From Fructilactobacillus myrtifloralis (GTDB lineage: Bacteria; Bacillota; Bacilli; Lactobacillales; Lactobacillaceae): a stretch of DNA of 64,000 bases. Where the stretch lies: NCBI RefSeq assembly GCF_024029335.1, contig NZ_CP097116.1, positions 1,116,001-1,180,000 of the forward strand. Direction: 5' to 3'. The notes under the pieces are model-generated. The model made no database searches. It saw only the letters and a program-made list of their open reading frames with translations, and was not told the DNA's origin. The translations under genes and the position numbers were made by a program. Positions 42,888 to 52,195 of the stretch are shown here, piece after piece (positions within the stretch are counted from its first letter, which is position 1; the number at the start of each line of letters is the position of its first letter).

Positions 42888-43016
42888 ATTGGACTGGATT
42901 CTCGAACGAAGACTAATCATAAGTAGCTTAAGTAGCAACAATTGAATTTTAATTAACTTTTATAATAATGATTTGTACATGATATAATAATGACATTAAT
43001 AATCTGGGAGGCAATC

Positions 43017-46000
43017 ATGAAGACAGATGTACCGTATAATGTGGGACTTGATATTGGGACCAGCTCGATTGGGTGGGCCATCACGGACGAAAATAACCGC
43101 TTGATTTCAGTTAAGGGTCATTATGGAATTGGGACGCGGTTGTTTAAGGAAGGCGAAGCAGCTGCCGACCGGCGCGGGTTTCGGACAACGCGACGGCGCT
43201 TATCGCGAAGAAAATGGCGGTTACGGCTGTTGGCGGAAATTTTTGATGCTCCGATTGCTGCAGTGGACCAGAGTTTCTACGCTCGATTACGGCAATCAAG
43301 CGTGTCGCCGTTAGATCCACAGAAAAAGCATGAATTTGCAGATAACATCTTATTTGCAGATCCGGACTTTACCGATCGAGATTATCACCATGAGTATCCA
43401 ACGATTTATCATTTACGGCATAAACTGGCTACGGAACAACGGCAGTTTGATGTCCGGTTAATCTATTTAGCCGTGCACCATTTGATTAAATACCGAGGCC
43501 ATTTTTTGAACAAGGCGGCTGCCAATAAGTTCAAGGCGGGGGAAATCGATCTAGCTACAGCCTTTCAGCAGTTAGATGATATTTTTGCCCAGCAACAACG
43601 TGATGACGTGCGGTTAAAAACCACGGACGTCAATCACCTGGTGAAAATTTTGACAGATACTAACTTTAGTAAGAGTGATCGCCAAAAGCAAATTGCGAGT
43701 GAAATTTTTGTGAAAGGTGACAAGGATCAGGATAAGCTTAATAAAAAGCTTGCTACGGAAATTGTGAAGGCAATTGTCGGGTTAAAAGCTAAGTTTGACG
43801 TGATTTTTGGGCTACAGGATGTTCCGAATGCTAAGGAGTTTTCGTTAACTTTCAATAGCGATGATTTTGACCAAAAGTTAGCTGATTTAGGCTCACAAGT
43901 GACGGATGAGGATCAGGAAATCGTGGCAATCCTGCAAAAGCTATACTTTGCCGTTGATTTAGCTGGAATCCTACAGAATCCGACCACGGGGAAGATGTTC
44001 TCAAGTATCTCGGAGGCCATGATTGATCGGTATGAACGGCATCATGATGACTTAGAGAAGTTAAAACAATTAGCAGCGCAGTTCAAGAAAGCGGGAAAGG
44101 TGGAACAAGCCACGGCTCTGAAACAGGCTTACGCCGATTACGTTGATGGTGAAGTTAGTAGCTATAAGAAACTCCCGTTGGATGAATTTATGAAGCGGGT
44201 GGGGAAGCAACTGGATGATTCGGCAGTGGCTACTGAAATTAAATCGGAGATTGATACGGGGCAATTTATGCCAAAACAACGTTCCAAAGAAAATGGGGCG
44301 ATTCCATATCAACTGCAGCAACAGGAGCTCGACGCCATCATTGAGAATCAGGGACAGTATTATCCCTGGCTTCGTGAAGCTAAAGAGCACCTGGATGCGC
44401 TGATTTCCTTCCGGGTGCCTTACTACGTCGGTCCGATGGTTGATCCAGAAGAAGTTAGTGCTGAAAACGGCAAATTTGCGTGGATGAAACGCAAAGATCA
44501 GGGGAGCATCACTCCGTGGAATTTTGCGGAAAAAGTTGATAAAACGACTTCAGCAACGAATTTTATCAAACGGATGACGGCCACGGATACCTACCTAATT
44601 GGAGCACCGGTGTTGCCGAAAAATAGTTTGTTATACCAAGAATTCACGGTTTTAAACGAGTTAAATAAGTTAAAAGTGAATGTGAATGGAAAGAAATTTG
44701 CATTAGAACCAGACCAGAAACAAGCGATTTTTAATCAGGTTTATAAAAACCACAAACGCGTTTCCTTGAAACGAATCAAGGAGTTTATGCAGGCCCAGGG
44801 TTGGATTAATACAGATGCCGATCTTTCAGGAACGACCGATCAAAAGAACGTTAACAATATATTGGGCACGTATAATGATTTTAAACCGATCTTTGGTTCC
44901 CAGCTGGATAATCCGGATCGCCAGGCGGACCTTGAACGCATCATTGAGTGGTCGACCATCTTTGAAGATGAACACATTTTCAAGTTAAAGCTGGATACAA
45001 TTAAATGGCTTACACAGGAACAAAAAACCCAGTTAGCAAAACACCGGTACCAAGGTTGGGGTCGATTATCGAAACAATTGTTAGCTGGGATAACAAACGC
45101 CAACGGAGAACGGGTAATTGATGTGTTGTGGAACACGGATCAAAACTTGATGGAAACCCTGGCTGATGATAGTTTCAAGGCTGCGATTCAAGAATTTAAC
45201 GGAGACCAGTTAGACCAACAAAACGTTTCCGACGTGATTGATGACTTGTATACATCTCCACAAAATAAAAAGGCCATGCGCCAGGTCTTATTAGTGATTG
45301 ATGACATTGAAAAGGCCATGGGTCACGCTCCTGCAAACATTATGATTGAATTTGCCCGCGAAGATCGAAACGATCATCGCTTAGTTAATTCACGGGCTAA
45401 CCAGTTAGATAAAACGTATCAGAACGCAAAGGCTGAGATTAGCAAGGATGTGCAGGCGGAATTAAAAGCGAAAATCAAAGATAAGGCGCAATTTAATGAC
45501 CGGCTCTATTTGTACTTCGTTCAAGGCGGTAAGGATTTATATACCGGGAAGCCAATCGATATTGATCGGCTTTCCAACTATCAAATTGATCATATCTTAC
45601 CGCAGTCCTTTATTTTGGATAACTCGTTGGATAATCGTGTGTTAACAGCTCAGGATAATAACCAGACCAAGGCTGACCGGCTCCCTGGAGAACTCTTTGG
45701 GGATAAGATGAAGGGTTATTGGAACACTCTGCGCGAGCACGGATTGATGACTTGGAAGAAGTACAATAATCTCATGTTAACTCCCGATAAAATTAGTAAG
45801 TTTAACAATCAAGGTCGGTTCATTAATCGGCAACTGGTTGAAACCCGCCAGGTCATTAAACTAATTGCAGAGATTTTGCACAACCGCTATGCCGATGAGG
45901 GACAGACTGAGATTGTTACGGTAAAAGCGAACTTAACCCATCACATGCGGACGAAATTCAACTTCTATAAAAACCGGAATGTGAATGATTATCACCATGC

Positions 46001-47048
46001 TTTTGATGCCTACTTATCAGTGTTTGTAGGAAATTGGTTGTTACAACAATATCCTAATTTGAAGCCATACTTTGTTTATGGTGATTATGCCAAGGGTGGA
46101 ATTAAGGACTTGAAGCATTTTAACTTCTTATACCGCTTTGAAAAGCAACATGAGTTAGCTGAAGATGGGCAGATTAAAACTGATCCAGACCAGTTATTGG
46201 GTTACATGCGCAAGTTGTATCAATTAAAACGGATGCTGGTAACCAAAGAACTGGAAACCAATCACGGGAATTTATTTAAGCAGACGGTCTTTCCGGCGCC
46301 GGCCCATGATAAAAAGATGAAGAAGCCACGAAAGTTGATTAACCCTAAAGCTAATCGTTCGAGTGACATTTATGGTGGTTATACCAGTAAAACGGCGGCT
46401 TTCATGACATTAGTTCGCGTGAAAAAAAGAGCGAAAGTCGAATATCGGCTTGCAAGTGTTCCGTTAGCTAATTTAGTTTGGCAACAACAGGGAATGTCCT
46501 TTGCTGAGATGGTCGATAAATCTGTTCGTCCCCAATTTACAGGAAAGAACGGTAAGGTAAATGATTATCAGGTTGTTAAAAGCAAGGTATACATTAATCA
46601 ACTAGTTAATGAGGATGGGTCAATGTTTACGTTAGCAAGTAAGCAATATCGGCATAATGCTCAACAGTTGGTGTTATCTGACCAAGCAATGAAAATTTTA
46701 AGCAGTAAGCCAACTGATCTTACTCGGGATGATTTGATTTTTGTTTTCAATGAAATTGTTGATAAGGGACAACGCTATTTTAAAGCTTATGATTTTAGTA
46801 ATAGTGAAGAAGCAAAAGTTCGATTTAGTGAGTTAGCTGATTTCGATGATATGAGAACAATTATTAACAACTTGTTGATTGGAATGCATGCCAATGCGCC
46901 ATATGCTGATGTTTCAAAGGTTGGGTTACCTAAATATTTAGGATTGTTCATTTTAACATCAGGTATAAAATTGAAACCTGAAACTAAATTTATTTACCAA
47001 TCTCCAACTGGTCTATTTTCCCGGCAAGTTAAAATTTCTGATTTGTAA
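43017..47048 (+). CDS. cas9: CRISPR-associated endonuclease Cas9, type II-A
   Basis: A 1343-residue RNA-guided DNA nuclease. RuvC-I GLDIGTSSIGWA with D12; Arg-rich bridge helix (RRTTRRRLSRRKWRLRLL); REC lobe in the middle; RuvC-II IMIEFARED with E778; HNH DHILPQSFILDNS with H859; RuvC-III YHHAFDAYL with D997; C-terminal PAM-interacting domain. All catalytic residues are intact. The ATG at 43017 has gggagg at 6 bases; the earlier ATG (42990) has none. It ends at a bidirectional terminator shared with tracrRNA. The family and subtype follow from csn2 and the length. Confidence 0.98.
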   Translation: MKTDVPYNVGLDIGTSSIGWAITDENNRLISVKGHYGIGTRLFKEGEAAADRRGFRTTRRRLSRRKWRLRLLAEIFDAPIAAVDQSFYARLRQSSVSPLDPQKKHEFADNILFADPDFTDRDYHHEYPTIYHLRHKLATEQRQFDVRLIYLAVHHLIKYRGHFLNKAAANKFKAGEIDLATAFQQLDDIFAQQQRDDVRLKTTDVNHLVKILTDTNFSKSDRQKQIASEIFVKGDKDQDKLNKKLATEIVKAIVGLKAKFDVIFGLQDVPNAKEFSLTFNSDDFDQKLADLGSQVTDEDQEIVAILQKLYFAVDLAGILQNPTTGKMFSSISEAMIDRYERHHDDLEKLKQLAAQFKKAGKVEQATALKQAYADYVDGEVSSYKKLPLDEFMKRVGKQLDDSAVATEIKSEIDTGQFMPKQRSKENGAIPYQLQQQELDAIIENQGQYYPWLREAKEHLDALISFRVPYYVGPMVDPEEVSAENGKFAWMKRKDQGSITPWNFAEKVDKTTSATNFIKRMTATDTYLIGAPVLPKNSLLYQEFTVLNELNKLKVNVNGKKFALEPDQKQAIFNQVYKNHKRVSLKRIKEFMQAQGWINTDADLSGTTDQKNVNNILGTYNDFKPIFGSQLDNPDRQADLERIIEWSTIFEDEHIFKLKLDTIKWLTQEQKTQLAKHRYQGWGRLSKQLLAGITNANGERVIDVLWNTDQNLMETLADDSFKAAIQEFNGDQLDQQNVSDVIDDLYTSPQNKKAMRQVLLVIDDIEKAMGHAPANIMIEFAREDRNDHRLVNSRANQLDKTYQNAKAEISKDVQAELKAKIKDKAQFNDRLYLYFVQGGKDLYTGKPIDIDRLSNYQIDHILPQSFILDNSLDNRVLTAQDNNQTKADRLPGELFGDKMKGYWNTLREHGLMTWKKYNNLMLTPDKISKFNNQGRFINRQLVETRQVIKLIAEILHNRYADEGQTEIVTVKANLTHHMRTKFNFYKNRNVNDYHHAFDAYLSVFVGNWLLQQYPNLKPYFVYGDYAKGGIKDLKHFNFLYRFEKQHELAEDGQIKTDPDQLLGYMRKLYQLKRMLVTKELETNHGNLFKQTVFPAPAHDKKMKKPRKLINPKANRSSDIYGGYTSKTAAFMTLVRVKKRAKVEYRLASVPLANLVWQQQGMSFAEMVDKSVRPQFTGKNGKVNDYQVVKSKVYINQLVNEDGSMFTLASKQYRHNAQQLVLSDQAMKILSSKPTDLTRDDLIFVFNEIVDKGQRYFKAYDFSNSEEAKVRFSELADFDDMRTIINNLLIGMHANAPYADVSKVGLPKYLGLFILTSGIKLKPETKFIYQSPTGLFSRQVKISDL

Positions 47049-47060
47049 AACTGAAGCACC

Positions 47061-47096
47061 AAAAAAGGGAAGCTATCAGATGATAGCTTCCCTTTT
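47061..47096. terminator. Bidirectional terminator of cas9 and tracrRNA
   Basis: GGGAAGCTATCA (47067-47078) pairs with TGATAGCTTCCC (47081-47092). The minus strand ends in six T (47066-47061), the plus strand in TTTTCT. Confidence 0.9.
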
Positions 47097-47211
47097 CTAA
47101 TATGTACGGCCCTTAAGGGCTCACAAGGATAAACTCCGCCATAGGCATTGTTTGATTTTAACTCAGTATGTCATTTCAATGAGATTAAAAACCGTTGGCA
47201 TCCCAACCAAC
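47062..47211 (-). ncRNA. tracrRNA
   Basis: On the minus strand an anti-repeat (47193 to 47156) is complementary to the CRISPR repeat: about 28 bases in a row match save one, then a bulge, then the lower stem with TTTTA. After it come a small stem-loop AGCCCTTAAGGGCC (47103-47122 region) and the terminator hairpin. The length of about 150 nt and the element order are those of II-A tracrRNAs. It is antisense to the cas operon. The 5' end is predicted from the promoter. Confidence 0.9.
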
Positions 47212-47217
47212 AATATC

Positions 47218-47246
47218 AATATAACGACTTTTTTTAGGAAAGTCAA
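47218..47246 (-). promoter_or_regulatory. tracrRNA promoter
   Basis: Minus strand TTGACT (47246-47241), exactly 17 bases, TATATT (47223-47218). The -35 box overlaps the cas1 ribosome site aaggaggt (47245-47252) on the other strand. Confidence 0.8.
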
Positions 47247-47258
47247 GGAGGTAGGAAG

Positions 47259-48164
47259 ATGGTGTGGAGAAGCGTTGTGATCACCCAACACGCTAAGGTA
47301 TCATATTCCGGACGACGGATCATCGTCCAAACTAACCAAACGGTGGCCGAAGTTCCAATCGATGATATCGAGGTACTGCTGATTAGTAACACACAGGCAG
47401 TACTAACGGCGCGGGCTATTAGTGAATTAGCACGTGCCGCAGTTAAAGTGATTTTTTCAGACGAGACTGGGGAACCGGTCTGTGAAACGGTTGATTATTT
47501 ACCGAATAATCGTAGTATGTCAGTTTTACAACGGCAGTTTGAGTGGGATGAAGCTCGCAAAGAACTACTATGGACTTGGTTAGTTACCGCTAAGGTTCAG
47601 ATGCAAATCACGGTTTTACAAAAACGTCACATTGATGCGAGTGATCTTGATTATGAATTCCGCAAAATTGAGATTAATGATCTTAGTAACCGTGAAGCAG
47701 TCGTTGCGCGCAAGTATTTTCCGTTACTGTTTGAAACTGGATTTGAACGACGGAATTTCCAGCCCGCTAACGCTGCTTTAAACTACGGTTATTCAATTTT
47801 ATTGTCATTGGTGAACCGTAACATTGTCGCCACGGGATGTTTGACGCAGCTAGGGATTCATCATCACAACGATGAAAATCAATTTAACCTGGGGTCAGAT
47901 TTGATGGAACCGTTTCGACCCATTATCGACTGGTGGGTAAGTGAACAAGAGATTAAGGAATTAACTCCAGAAGTTAAGATTAAGTTAGTTGATTTGTTGA
48001 ACCTAGAACTAAAGTTTAACGGCAAGAATACAATTTTAAGAAATGCACTAAAAACGCACGTGACGAACTGCATTAATTATTTAAATGGAGAACGAGAGAC
48101 TGCTAAAGTTGAGGTGGAATTAGGAGATGAGATATCGGATTATGCGCTTAATCGTAATGTTTGA
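47259..48164 (+). CDS. cas1: CRISPR integrase Cas1
   Basis: A 301-residue spacer integrase. The metal-binding residues are visible: Glu in NREAVVARKYF, His in LGIHHHNDENQ and Asp/Glu in NLGSDLMEPFRPI. aaggaggt lies 6 bases before the ATG at 47259. The end overlaps cas2 by 38 bases. Confidence 0.97.
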   Translation: MVWRSVVITQHAKVSYSGRRIIVQTNQTVAEVPIDDIEVLLISNTQAVLTARAISELARAAVKVIFSDETGEPVCETVDYLPNNRSMSVLQRQFEWDEARKELLWTWLVTAKVQMQITVLQKRHIDASDLDYEFRKIEINDLSNREAVVARKYFPLLFETGFERRNFQPANAALNYGYSILLSLVNRNIVATGCLTQLGIHHHNDENQFNLGSDLMEPFRPIIDWWVSEQEIKELTPEVKIKLVDLLNLELKFNGKNTILRNALKTHVTNCINYLNGERETAKVEVELGDEISDYALNRNV

Positions 48165-48447
48165 TTTGCCAATGGATACTAGTGAAGATAAGCGGAATTA
48201 CCGGAAGTTTCGCAAGGAGTTAATCAACGAAGGATTCTTAATGATCCAGTATTCGGTCTATGCCCGGGTTTGTGTCACCAAACAGTCCGCTCAGTTTACG
48301 GAAAATCGGATTAAAACGTTTTTACCTACCCGTGGATTGATTCAGACGTTGATGGTAACCGAAAAACAATACAATAGTATGCACTTTTTGGTTGGAGAGC
48401 AAAAGGATGATGTCCGGAATACCTCAGATCGGACGGTGGTGCTATGA
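48127..48447 (+). CDS. cas2: CRISPR-associated protein Cas2
   Basis: A 106-residue ferredoxin-fold partner of Cas1 in spacer acquisition. The start MRYRIMRLIVMFDLPMD matches II-A Cas2 proteins, with the conserved Asp in FDLP. It begins inside cas1, and its end overlaps csn2 by 4 bases (ATGA). Confidence 0.96.
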   Translation: MRYRIMRLIVMFDLPMDTSEDKRNYRKFRKELINEGFLMIQYSVYARVCVTKQSAQFTENRIKTFLPTRGLIQTLMVTEKQYNSMHFLVGEQKDDVRNTSDRTVVL

Positions 48448-49109
48448 AGCTAACTTTGTATCCGAATGCTCCCTTTGAAATTAATGCGGGAGTTCCCACT
48501 GTTATTCGGACTAATAATCAAGCCTTTTATACTAGTCTGAGTTTAGGCTTGCAAAGTAAGCAAGACATCGTTTTGAGTGATAATGATGAAGTACTTGAAC
48601 TCAATGACTATTTACAATTTATAGGAAACGTGGTTACTAATCCAGATCTGTTTACGCCCTTTAAACTGAAAATTGAACGGGAAATTCTGGAAAATTTAAA
48701 CGAGAAGGAACGCCAACGCCTATATCAATTAGATTGCGAACTTAAAAGTATTTTCTTGGGATCTGCTTATTTAGAGGATTTTCCGCTAACAATTAATGAT
48801 GAGTGGGACGTGAAAAAGCAGTATAAGTACTGTGGGATTAACTTTTTGCATGATGCGCAAGCAACTCCCTATGATATAATTAAGGAAGTTCTTAACTTAT
48901 ATAATCAATTTAATGCTAAAAAACTACTGGTTCTTGCTGATCTCTTTAATTACTTGGAAGAAGCCCAACAACTTCAGATATTTCAATTAATTAAAAAGTT
49001 GGAATTACATGTCTTACTATTAGATTTTTCCTGGCAACCATATTCCCAATTGTTAGAAGAATGCCGTTATTACAGCGTTGACAAGGATTTTGTAATCTTT
49101 GAGCGTTAA
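48444..49109 (+). CDS. csn2: CRISPR-associated protein Csn2
   Basis: A 221-residue protein that binds double-stranded DNA ends as a ring in II-A adaptation. It matches the canonical Csn2 length and build; ends DFSWQPYSQLLEECRYYSVD. Defines the subtype as II-A. Clearly more AT-rich than cas9. The first repeat begins only 20 bases after its stop, so leader sequence overlaps the gene end. Confidence 0.95.
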   Translation: MKLTLYPNAPFEINAGVPTVIRTNNQAFYTSLSLGLQSKQDIVLSDNDEVLELNDYLQFIGNVVTNPDLFTPFKLKIEREILENLNEKERQRLYQLDCELKSIFLGSAYLEDFPLTINDEWDVKKQYKYCGINFLHDAQATPYDIIKEVLNLYNQFNAKKLLVLADLFNYLEEAQQLQIFQLIKKLELHVLLLDFSWQPYSQLLEECRYYSVDKDFVIFER

Positions 49110-49129
49110 CGGATGAAATATTACAGACG

Positions 49130-49825
49130 GTTTTAGTAGTATGTCATTTCAATGAGATTAAGAACGAGCAGAAATAGCTAAAACATTTTTAACATGTTTT
49201 AGTAGTATGTCATTTCAATGAGATTAAGAACCTCCCAAGAGTTGAACTTTACAAACTACGTGTTTTAGTAGTATGTCATTTCAATGAGATTAAGAACCGA
49301 AGTAGTACCACTTTTTACCGTTTGCTAGTTTTAGTAGTATGTCATTTCAATGAGATTAAGAACCAAAATTTTTGAAATTTTTTGCGATTTTTTGTTTTAG
49401 TAGTATGTCATTTCAATGAGATTAAGAACGACACAAATTCTGTTTTACACACGTCACCGGTTTTAGTAGTATGTCATTTCAATGAGATTAAGAACGGGAT
49501 TGTATTCATCCGTGGTCAGTTTATGGTTTTAGTAGTATGTCATTTCAATGAGATTAAGAACGTCTTGGCGCTTTCAATGGTCACGTCCTCCGTTTTAGTA
49601 GTATGTCATTTCAATGAGATTAAGAACAATTATTGGAAGCATTTAGGCGGTACCTATGTTTTAGTAGTATGTCATTTCAATGAGATTAAGAACCTTGAAA
49701 ATTTAGTAAATAGTGATGATGTAGTTTTAGTAGTATGTCATTTCAATGAGATTAAGAACTACCAACTGCAATTCCATTTTGGGTATACTGTTTTAGTAGT
49801 ATGTCATTTCAATGAGATTGATAAT
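49130..49825 (+). CRISPR. Type II-A CRISPR array, 11 repeats and 10 spacers
   Basis: Repeats of 36 bases start at 49130, 49196, 49262, 49328, 49394, 49460, 49526, 49592, 49658, 49724 and 49790, in a strict 66-base period with 30-base spacers. The repeat begins GTTTTAGTAGTATGTCATTT and ends CAATGAGATTAAGAAC. The last copy ends in GATTGATAAT instead of GATTAAGAAC, marking it as the old (trailer) end. New spacers are therefore added next to csn2. No other repeat differences are seen. Confidence 0.99.
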
Positions 49826-49922
49826 TTGCGGCCATATTTATTGACTTTCAATCTAATTTATGTTAAAAATGATTTGTTGATAGATATTAGATTTTAGATG
49901 TATGTCTTTTGAGATTATAATT

Positions 49923-49947
49923 AAAGTCATTTTGACTTTTTTTATTT
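49923..49947 (+). terminator. Terminator after the CRISPR array
   Basis: AAAGTCA (49923-49929) pairs with TGACTTT (49933-49939), followed by TTTTATTTTT. It separates the pre-crRNA from the next operon. Confidence 0.75.
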
Positions 49948-49976: not shown

Positions 49977-50019
49977 TATTTAATTTAAAACGTTTTGTTT
50001 TATGGAAGAGGGTAATTTC

Positions 50020-50397
50020 TTGAAAAAAAGGATTTTTATAAGCTTTGCTATTGAAGATGAAAAATTACGTGATTTTATTGTTGGACAATCTAAAAACAAG
50101 GAATCACCGTTTGAATTTATTGATATGTCTGTTAAAGAACCATGGACAAATTCTTGGAAGACTAAATGTAATTCTAAGATTAAAAGTTGTGATGGTGTAA
50201 TTGCATTTATTACAAGTAAAACTAAAAGTGCAAATGGTGAACTTTGGGAAATTAAATGTTCACAAGATAATAATATACCCATTCTTTTTGTTTGGGGGTA
50301 CAAAGAACATTTGTCGTATGTTCCAGGATTTGTAAATTCATCAAAAATTAAAAATTGGAAATGGGATAATATAGAAAAATGGATAGATAAATTATAG
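50020..50397 (+). CDS. Small TIR-like protein (ThsB/DUF1863 type)
   Basis: A 125-residue TIR-like protein. First strand KRIFISFAIEDEKLRDFI, central DGVIAFITSKT, and the catalytic-region helix ANGELWEIKC with candidate NADase Glu E77 (or E74), as in ThsB-type proteins. The start is TTG 50020 with gaggg 7 bases upstream; the ATG at 50002 has no ribosome site. In Thoeris systems such proteins sense phage and make a cyclic ADP-ribose-type signal. Very AT-rich. It is 24 bases before the caspase gene. Confidence 0.82.
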   Translation: MKKRIFISFAIEDEKLRDFIVGQSKNKESPFEFIDMSVKEPWTNSWKTKCNSKIKSCDGVIAFITSKTKSANGELWEIKCSQDNNIPILFVWGYKEHLSYVPGFVNSSKIKNWKWDNIEKWIDKL

Positions 50398-50421
50398 GAA
50401 TTTATTAAGGAGATAACATTT

Positions 50422-51396
50422 ATGATTAAAAGAAAAGCACTAATTGTAGGAATAGATAACTATCCTAATGCAAAACTTAAAGGATGCGTAAATGATGCCA
50501 AATCAATTGCGTCATTATTAGAAAAAAATGAGGATGATTCGCCTAATTTTGATGTTAGACTTGAATGCAACGTGCCAACTAAAGGAAAATTAAAAACTTA
50601 CATTAAAGATTTATTTTCAGGAAATGCTAGTGTAGCCTTATTTTACTTTTCTGGTCATGGTTATTCCATTGATAATGAAAATGGAATTGTAACCCCAGAT
50701 TTTTCTGAGGGAGATATGGGGATAACTGCAGGTGATTTATTGGAGATTGCAAATGATTCTCAAATTGAAAATAAAATTATAATTTTAGATTCTTGTTTTT
50801 CAGGTAGTATGGGTGGATCGGAACCCTTGAAATCTAATATATCTGCTATTAGCAAAGGTTTAACAATTATGACAGCAAGTTCAGAAAAAGAGCCTTCTTT
50901 AGAACGAGGTGGACATGGTTTGTTTACTTCTCTTTTTATAAAAGCTCTTGAAGGATATGCTTCAGATATTATGGGAAATATTACCCCAGCAGGTATTTAT
51001 TCTTTTATTGATCAAACGCTAGGTCCTTGGGACCAAAGACCTATTTTCAAAACTAACACTCAAAATTTTTATTATTTAAGAAAATCTACACCTGACGTTA
51101 GTTTAGATGTATTAAGAAGAATCAAAAATTATTTTGAGACTGAAAATAGTGAATTTGAATTAGATCCTTCTTATGAGTTTACTAATTCCCCAAAAGAAAA
51201 GCATTATATAAAAAAGCCATATGCGTCTAGTGAAAATGTATCAAAGTTTAAAGAATTACAGTTATATCAAAAAATAGGATTAGTTGAACCAGTTGATGAA
51301 GACTATATGTATTTTGCAGCTATGAATAATAAATCATGTAGGCTTACATTTTTAGGAAAACGATATTTTGAATTAGCGAAAGATGGTAAAATATAA
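50422..51396 (+). CDS. Caspase-like (peptidase C14) effector protease
   Basis: A 324-residue protein. The caspase fold covers about residues 1-220: KALIVGIDNYP first strand, catalytic H79 in YFSGHGYS, catalytic C125 in ILDSCFSGS, and TASSEKEPS. The C-terminal 100 residues form a separate domain with NYFETENSEFEL and a winged-helix-like end (CRLTFLGKRYFELA). aaggag is 9 bases before the ATG. Flanked by two TIR genes, it is best read as the effector of a Thoeris-type system, activated by a TIR-made nucleotide. The C-terminal domain could bind that signal (inference). Alternative: a free-standing metacaspase. Confidence 0.88.
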   Translation: MIKRKALIVGIDNYPNAKLKGCVNDAKSIASLLEKNEDDSPNFDVRLECNVPTKGKLKTYIKDLFSGNASVALFYFSGHGYSIDNENGIVTPDFSEGDMGITAGDLLEIANDSQIENKIIILDSCFSGSMGGSEPLKSNISAISKGLTIMTASSEKEPSLERGGHGLFTSLFIKALEGYASDIMGNITPAGIYSFIDQTLGPWDQRPIFKTNTQNFYYLRKSTPDVSLDVLRRIKNYFETENSEFELDPSYEFTNSPKEKHYIKKPYASSENVSKFKELQLYQKIGLVEPVDEDYMYFAAMNNKSCRLTFLGKRYFELAKDGKI

Positions 51397-51951
51397 ATGA
51401 TTTTAAATAAACAATTTTTATATGGTATAGCAAATGATCCTAGAAATGAAGTTCAAAAAAACCTTGGTCGGGCTTTTGGTAATAGTTCTTCATATGATCT
51501 TTTCATTTCGCATAGTTTTAAAGATAAAAATTTAATTGGAGCTTTAGCATCCCTTTTTGAAAAAGATGGAATATCGGTATATATTGATTGGATCCAGGAT
51601 TCGACACTAGATAGGTTAAATGTTACTTCTAGAACAGCGAACGTAATTAAAAATCGGATTAAACAGTGTACGGGATTAGCCTATATTGCCACAAAAAATA
51701 TTGTTGATTCAAAATGGTGCCCTTGGGAGTTGGGGATTGGTGATGGTATGAATAATGGGAAAGTATGTATTCTACCAATTCTTGAAACAAAATCAGATAC
51801 ATTTCATGGTCAGGAATATTTAGGATTATATCAATATATTGATTATTCATCTGCTGGTAGTTATGGAGGGAGTCATTTTTGGATAAATGATCCGCAAGAT
51901 GGTGAAAAAATTGTAACTCTTAAAGAATGGTTAAGAGGTAATGGTCATTAA
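51397..51951 (+). CDS. TIR domain protein (second TIR)
   Basis: A 184-residue protein with a canonical TIR domain from about residue 32: YDLFISHSFKDK (box 1), ISVYIDWIQDS (BB-loop region), GLAYIATKNIVDSKWCPWEL with candidate catalytic E111. An N-terminal extension of 30 residues precedes it. The ATG directly follows the caspase stop (TAAATG), so translation is coupled. It differs clearly from the first TIR of the operon, so they may make different signals or sense different phages. Its last 11 bases overlap the next ORF. Confidence 0.87.
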   Translation: MILNKQFLYGIANDPRNEVQKNLGRAFGNSSSYDLFISHSFKDKNLIGALASLFEKDGISVYIDWIQDSTLDRLNVTSRTANVIKNRIKQCTGLAYIATKNIVDSKWCPWELGIGDGMNNGKVCILPILETKSDTFHGQEYLGLYQYIDYSSAGSYGGSHFWINDPQDGEKIVTLKEWLRGNGH

Positions 51952-52195
51952 TTATGAACAATGGCAAGCGCACAAGCGGGCCGAATTGGGAAAAAAGCAG
52001 GCAGCGCAACGAACCAAACGTTCCAAGCTGATTAGGACGGTTTTAATCGTGATTGCCGTCCTGGTATTCTTATCGATCATAATGGGTTCCCTGTGGTTAG
52101 CGTTAGGCTTGATCTTTATGGGGTGCTTAGCGGCAATTCCCAATATTCTTGAAATCTTATTCATCGGGACCTTTTTTGACGACCATAATCATTAG
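51941..52195 (+). CDS. Small membrane protein, 84 residues
   Basis: An N-terminal basic helix (YEQWQAHKRAELGKKQAAQR) and two hydrophobic helices (LIRTVLIVIAVLVFLSIIMG and LWLALGLIFMGCLAAIPNIL). Its base composition is that of the host chromosome and not of the preceding TIR genes. The start lies inside the TIR gene and has only a poor ribosome site, so it may be a host gene whose front was replaced at the insertion point. Confidence 0.5.
   Translation: MVINYEQWQAHKRAELGKKQAAQRTKRSKLIRTVLIVIAVLVFLSIIMGSLWLALGLIFMGCLAAIPNILEILFIGTFFDDHNH

Follow-up and report, generated by a model that had tools for sequence, protein, structure and literature searches.

The 64,000-nt stretch of Fructilactobacillus myrtifloralis DNA analysed here (the window) comes from a genome assembled as a single contig of 1.46 Mb and carries an intact type II-A CRISPR-Cas locus in the order cas9-cas1-cas2-csn2-array, with all four genes and the CRISPR array by which such systems are recognized. 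With its Cas1 as query, a search of named genomes gave matches in Fructilactobacillus lindneri (77%) and in F. sanfranciscensis (70%). The genes and the array are laid out as follows.

43017..47048, plus strand: cas9, type II-A (NCBIfam TIGR01865, 9.7e-282)
47259..48164, plus strand: cas1 (TIGR03639, 2e-79)
48127..48447, plus strand: cas2 (TIGR01573, 3.1e-21)
48444..49109, plus strand: csn2, which defines type II-A (TIGR01866, 6.7e-26)
49130..49825, plus strand: CRISPR array, with ten exact 36-nt repeats, one degenerate terminal repeat and 30-nt spacers

The cas9 product contains the Cas9_REC, HNH, RuvC and PAM-interacting domains (Pfam), and the start of the gene is best placed at the ATG that follows GGGAGG, not at the in-frame ATG upstream at 42990. 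The csn2 stop and the first repeat are just 20 bp apart (window 49109-49130), and the promoter and leader of the array are therefore probably located within the 3' end of csn2.

Several other features were seen in the window. A repeat-like element (GATTTTAGATGTATGTC-TTTTGAGATTATAAT, window 49889-49945) lies about 100 nt past the point where the last array repeat starts and is followed by a terminator-like hairpin; comparable lone repeats and terminators stand past the arrays of loci L093, L094, L104, L116 and others, and in L093 and L094, which belong to two species, the 'guide' preceding the lone repeat is nearly identical, as would be expected for a scaRNA-like RNA. No convincing match was found between the lone-repeat 'guide' and the cas9 promoter: the notion that the element beyond the array might direct Cas9 to that promoter was rejected, as the match covers only 10 nt, falls in the guide's non-seed half and was judged to be chance. 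The same judgement was reached for one more exact 12-mer match of the conserved guide of two species of genus g25, on a contig of a third genome other than the one with its CRISPR locus. Just downstream of the array (window 50002-52195), two TIR-like (ThsB) proteins are encoded on either side of a Peptidase_C14 caspase-like protein, and a small membrane-protein-like ORF comes next; this cluster resembles an anti-phage defence system of the Thoeris type. On the minus strand, window 29353-29700 matches the cspA thermoregulator leader of Rfam.

The element studied here occupies the 210-bp gap between cas9 and cas1. Given in the direction of its predicted transcription, from the cas1 side towards cas9, the features of the gap are the following.

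47245..47251, plus strand: cas1 Shine-Dalgarno (SD) sequence AAGGAGG, of which 47245-47246 are also in the -35 box
47241..47246 (read 47246-47241), minus strand: -35 box TTGACT (sequence; comparison of loci)
47218..47223 (read 47223-47218), minus strand: -10 box TATATT (sequence; conserved column block in related loci)
47194..47211, minus strand: tracrRNA 5' hairpin GTTGG..CCAAC, GTTGGTTGGGATGCCAAC, at the predicted start site (covariation)
47157..47192, minus strand: anti-repeat (29/36 identity to the repeat on the plus strand; duplex energy)
47131..47153, minus strand: tracrRNA bulged nexus (fold and covariation)
47103..47125, minus strand: hairpin after the nexus, GAGCCC..GGGC core (fold and covariation)
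47058..47101, minus strand: tracrRNA intrinsic terminator, 20-bp stem and TTTTTT (sequence)

The initial annotation had put the anti-repeat, a hairpin, the terminator and a TTGACT/TATATT promoter with a 17-bp spacer on the minus strand, and each of them was found there; it named neither the hairpin at the 5' end of the RNA (47211-47194) nor the fit of the terminator to the plus strand. An anti-repeat complementary to the cognate repeat is thus followed by a nexus and terminal hairpins, and the unit has, by prediction, its own intrinsic terminator and its own promoter, the latter supported by conservation. The RNA is predicted to start near 47211, downstream of both the promoter and the cas1 SD, and the 154-nt molecule folds at -54.3 kcal/mol (z = -5.1). 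An Rfam search returned no tracrRNA family match to the gap RNA, which shows only that Rfam does not cover the present tracrRNA variant.

The comparison covered 139 cas1 loci, belonging to Lactobacillaceae and to further families of its order; all locus counts given here include related loci and do not represent independent events or samples. An anti-repeat lies in the cas9-cas1 gap, oriented as in the window, in 74 of 99 Lactobacillaceae loci (26 genera). Outside this family, the tracrRNA is commonly located upstream of cas9 (25 loci); seven further loci resemble the window in having a tracrRNA in the cas9-cas1 gap, but it runs there in the sense direction, on the cas strand, and the CAAGG motif described below is absent. 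Within Lactobacillaceae, six loci (L066, L072, L082, L084, L085 and L095, genera g24, g36 and g40) carry the tracrRNA unit upstream of cas9 and have a cas9-cas1 gap of about 47-62 bp. These copies retain the 5' hairpin and a good -35 box, TTGACA or TTGCAA in the clearest of them, and lack an SD-like CCTCC beside the promoter.

Pairing with the repeat is strong and specific. Of the 36 positions of the repeat, the anti-repeat agrees with 29, no other non-array site in the 64 kb exceeds 21, and a genome-wide search found the gap site to be the sole copy in the genome. The predicted duplex of -41.8 kcal/mol lies far beyond shuffles of the gap (mean -15.1, s.d. 2.5, minimum -23.5). Across loci, the cognate repeat was the best partner of the anti-repeat in 47 of 50, with a duplex energy of -40.5 kcal/mol compared with -17.9 kcal/mol for repeats of other genera, and the two sequences have therefore coevolved.

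The helices of the predicted structure covary. In an alignment of 29 loci, its 33 pairs are formed in 84% of cases, changes on both sides of a pair occur in 172 cells against 62 in shuffles, and the score collapses once partners are shifted by a single base; a covariance model of 29 loci recovers held-out relatives. The nexus is paired in 95.3% of cells, with compensatory change at four of its eight pairs, and the inner helix of the hairpin that follows it has both-sided changes at all four pairs. The 5' hairpin is 95.1% paired and changes on both sides at five of six pairs, a covariation score reached by none of 500 shuffles; since it is kept in the copies upstream of cas9, it belongs to the tracrRNA itself. 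A covarying hairpin of this kind, placed where the tracrRNA is predicted to start, was found described nowhere in the open literature searched, coverage of which was incomplete, and we regard the hairpin as a small addition for which the evidence of novelty is weak. In the window this hairpin is also terminator-like, and early termination at it was considered and discarded, as the T-run is not conserved in relatives.

The promoter required comparison, because its match is in itself not unusual: 12 such sites were found where 12.3 would be expected by chance. Conservation across loci, and not the lone match, is what argues for it. In 51 loci the minus strand of the gap scores above shuffles for a promoter (p = 1e-4) and the plus strand does not (p = 0.92), and a TG extended -10 element is present in 30 of the 51.

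Taken together, these data leave little doubt that a Fructilactobacillus type II-A CRISPR-Cas9 system has its tracrRNA gene here, in which a sigma-70-type promoter would give rise to a minus-strand RNA of about 150 nt and overlaps the cas1 SD, most likely through compaction. The anatomy, the promoter position and the pairing are read from the sequence and its comparison, while expression and processing of the RNA at this locus are inferred from RNA-seq that others have published for related systems. In type II-A systems it is established that the tracrRNA pairs with the pre-crRNA, that RNase III trims the duplex and that Cas9 uses the product as its guide. The predicted RNA would act in the same way: transcribed from beside the cas1 ribosome site towards cas9, it would pair with the CRISPR repeats of the pre-crRNA, and the duplex, once trimmed by RNase III, would be held by Cas9 and used as a guide.

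A separate matter is whether the antisense arrangement regulates the operon. The initial annotation had suggested that polymerase collision or RNA pairing could balance cas9, cas1 and tracrRNA levels, a suggestion that did not gain support, given a predicted RNA that starts past the SD and a terminator that fits both strands. As the predicted start lies about 34 nt beyond the cas1 SD, the tracrRNA should be unable to mask it. On the plus strand the terminator hairpin is followed by TTTTCT and is terminator-like both ways; it would therefore stop much cas9 transcription before the tracrRNA unit, limiting collision, and may in this way hold the two polymerases apart by ending cas9 transcripts too. 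Because no plus-strand cas1 promoter in the gap rises above the shuffles (p = 0.92, 51 loci), cas1 is probably served by read-through. Over about 150 nt, any cas9-cas1 read-through mRNA and the tracrRNA would be fully complementary, so that pairing is in principle unavoidable, and the resulting duplex could be a substrate for RNase III.

From these elements a regulatory device could be assembled, in which tracrRNA transcription and RNase III-cut tracrRNA:mRNA pairing uncouple cas1-cas2-csn2 from cas9, the bidirectional terminator limits read-through, and the layout stands in for the autoregulation by a longer tracrRNA (tracr-L) known from streptococci. The frequency of the antisense gap layout (74/99 Lactobacillaceae loci, 26 genera), the dependence on read-through of a cas1 gene without a standout plus-strand promoter and the A-tract of the terminator, which gives a plus-strand T-tract (at least five T in eight) in 26 of 35 scored relatives with Cas1 at least 45% identical, speak in its favour. 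However, A-tracts before terminators are common and may merely extend the stem, and the tracrRNA copies upstream of cas9 indicate that the layout is not required; we consider such a device unlikely. Slightly less probable again is a more specific proposal for lactobacilli as a group, by which the antisense unit, including the bidirectional terminator and the 5' hairpin that covaries, would replace tracr-L and set the ratio of Cas9 to spacer acquisition through termination of cas9 transcripts and RNase III cutting of tracrRNA:cas mRNA duplexes. If the layout did set the cas9:cas1 ratio, this would suggest how systems devoid of tracr-L limit spacer acquisition.

The overlap with the cas1 SD, another point made by the initial annotation, is real: 2 bp (47245-47246) are common to the -35 box and the SD. 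In 45 of the 51 gap loci whose Cas1 reaches at least 45% identity, the cas1 SD and the best minus-strand promoter overlap, and CAAGG, the motif shared by the -35 box and the SD, is present in 41 (15 genera), against only two of 43 loci of other layouts in which it precedes cas1. The remaining genes of these loci have a C directly before AAGG in 12 of 88 cases, the tracr-bearing cas1 genes in 38 of 41 (Fisher p = 1e-18). No description of this overlap was found in the literature searched. Its conservation in the same register in many genera could be taken to mean that it couples tracrRNA initiation to cas1 translation, a polymerase at the -35 box competing with a passing polymerase or ribosomes. 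Yet an SD works in RNA and a -35 box in DNA, so the shared bases need have no regulatory effect; Lactobacillaceae with a distant Cas1 (below 45% identity) show the overlap in only four of 23 loci and otherwise have the -35 box elsewhere near the cas1 start; and the tracrRNA copies upstream of cas9 do without it. Such coupling is thus very improbable. The overlap is most likely a by-product of fitting the promoter tightly beside the start of cas1 where the gap is short and both signals are kept, arising because the tracrRNA unit adjoins cas1, as the upstream copies, with promoter and hairpin but no SD motif, illustrate.

That the repeat-like stretch of the gap is nothing but a decayed CRISPR repeat without anti-repeat function, as its likeness to the repeat on the array's own strand might suggest, has a negligible chance of being correct in view of the cognate coevolution, the covarying nexus and hairpins, the terminator, the promoter and its uniqueness in the genome.

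A functional tracrRNA gene, the preferred reading, provides a well-supported tracrRNA from which a usable dual guide for Fructilactobacillus Cas9 could be designed. It also brings out two details conserved across lactobacilli: the shared promoter and SD bases together with a bidirectional terminator between cas9 and the adaptation genes, and the hairpin at the 5' end of the primary tracrRNA.

Among known systems, that of Streptococcus pyogenes likewise has the tracrRNA of a type II-A system, the longer form of which, tracr-L, represses Pcas (PMC11417352). In contrast to the window, the streptococcal layout places the tracrRNA upstream of cas9, and the transcript predicted here, from its predicted start, has no room for a repeat mimic before the anti-repeat. 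A search for a tracr-L repeat mimic gave a score of at least 34 in none of 74 loci and likewise in none of the loci of streptococcal layout, and so had no power.

The closest parallels are found in lactobacilli, of which a bulged nexus is typical (PMC6070500). In L. salivarius, RNA-seq revealed a tracrRNA upstream of cas1 and transcribed from right to left (PMC11288051); for a cloned L. rhamnosus locus, small RNA-seq identified a 138-bp tracrRNA between Cas9 and Cas1 (PMC10541446); and in L. brevis strains a minus-strand tracrRNA was predicted between cas9 and cas1 (PMC9204096). The type II-A systems of L. rhamnosus GG, L. salivarius and L. brevis share with the window the gene order, the gap and a tracrRNA upstream of cas1, while their repeat and anti-repeat sequences differ. 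The annotated direction of the tracrRNA, on the minus strand towards cas9 and against the cas operon, accordingly agrees both with the layout seen here and with transcription from the cas1 side in the related system (PMC11288051). The element is an ordinary tracrRNA of a complete CRISPR-Cas9 system, in an antisense layout already published for lactobacilli.
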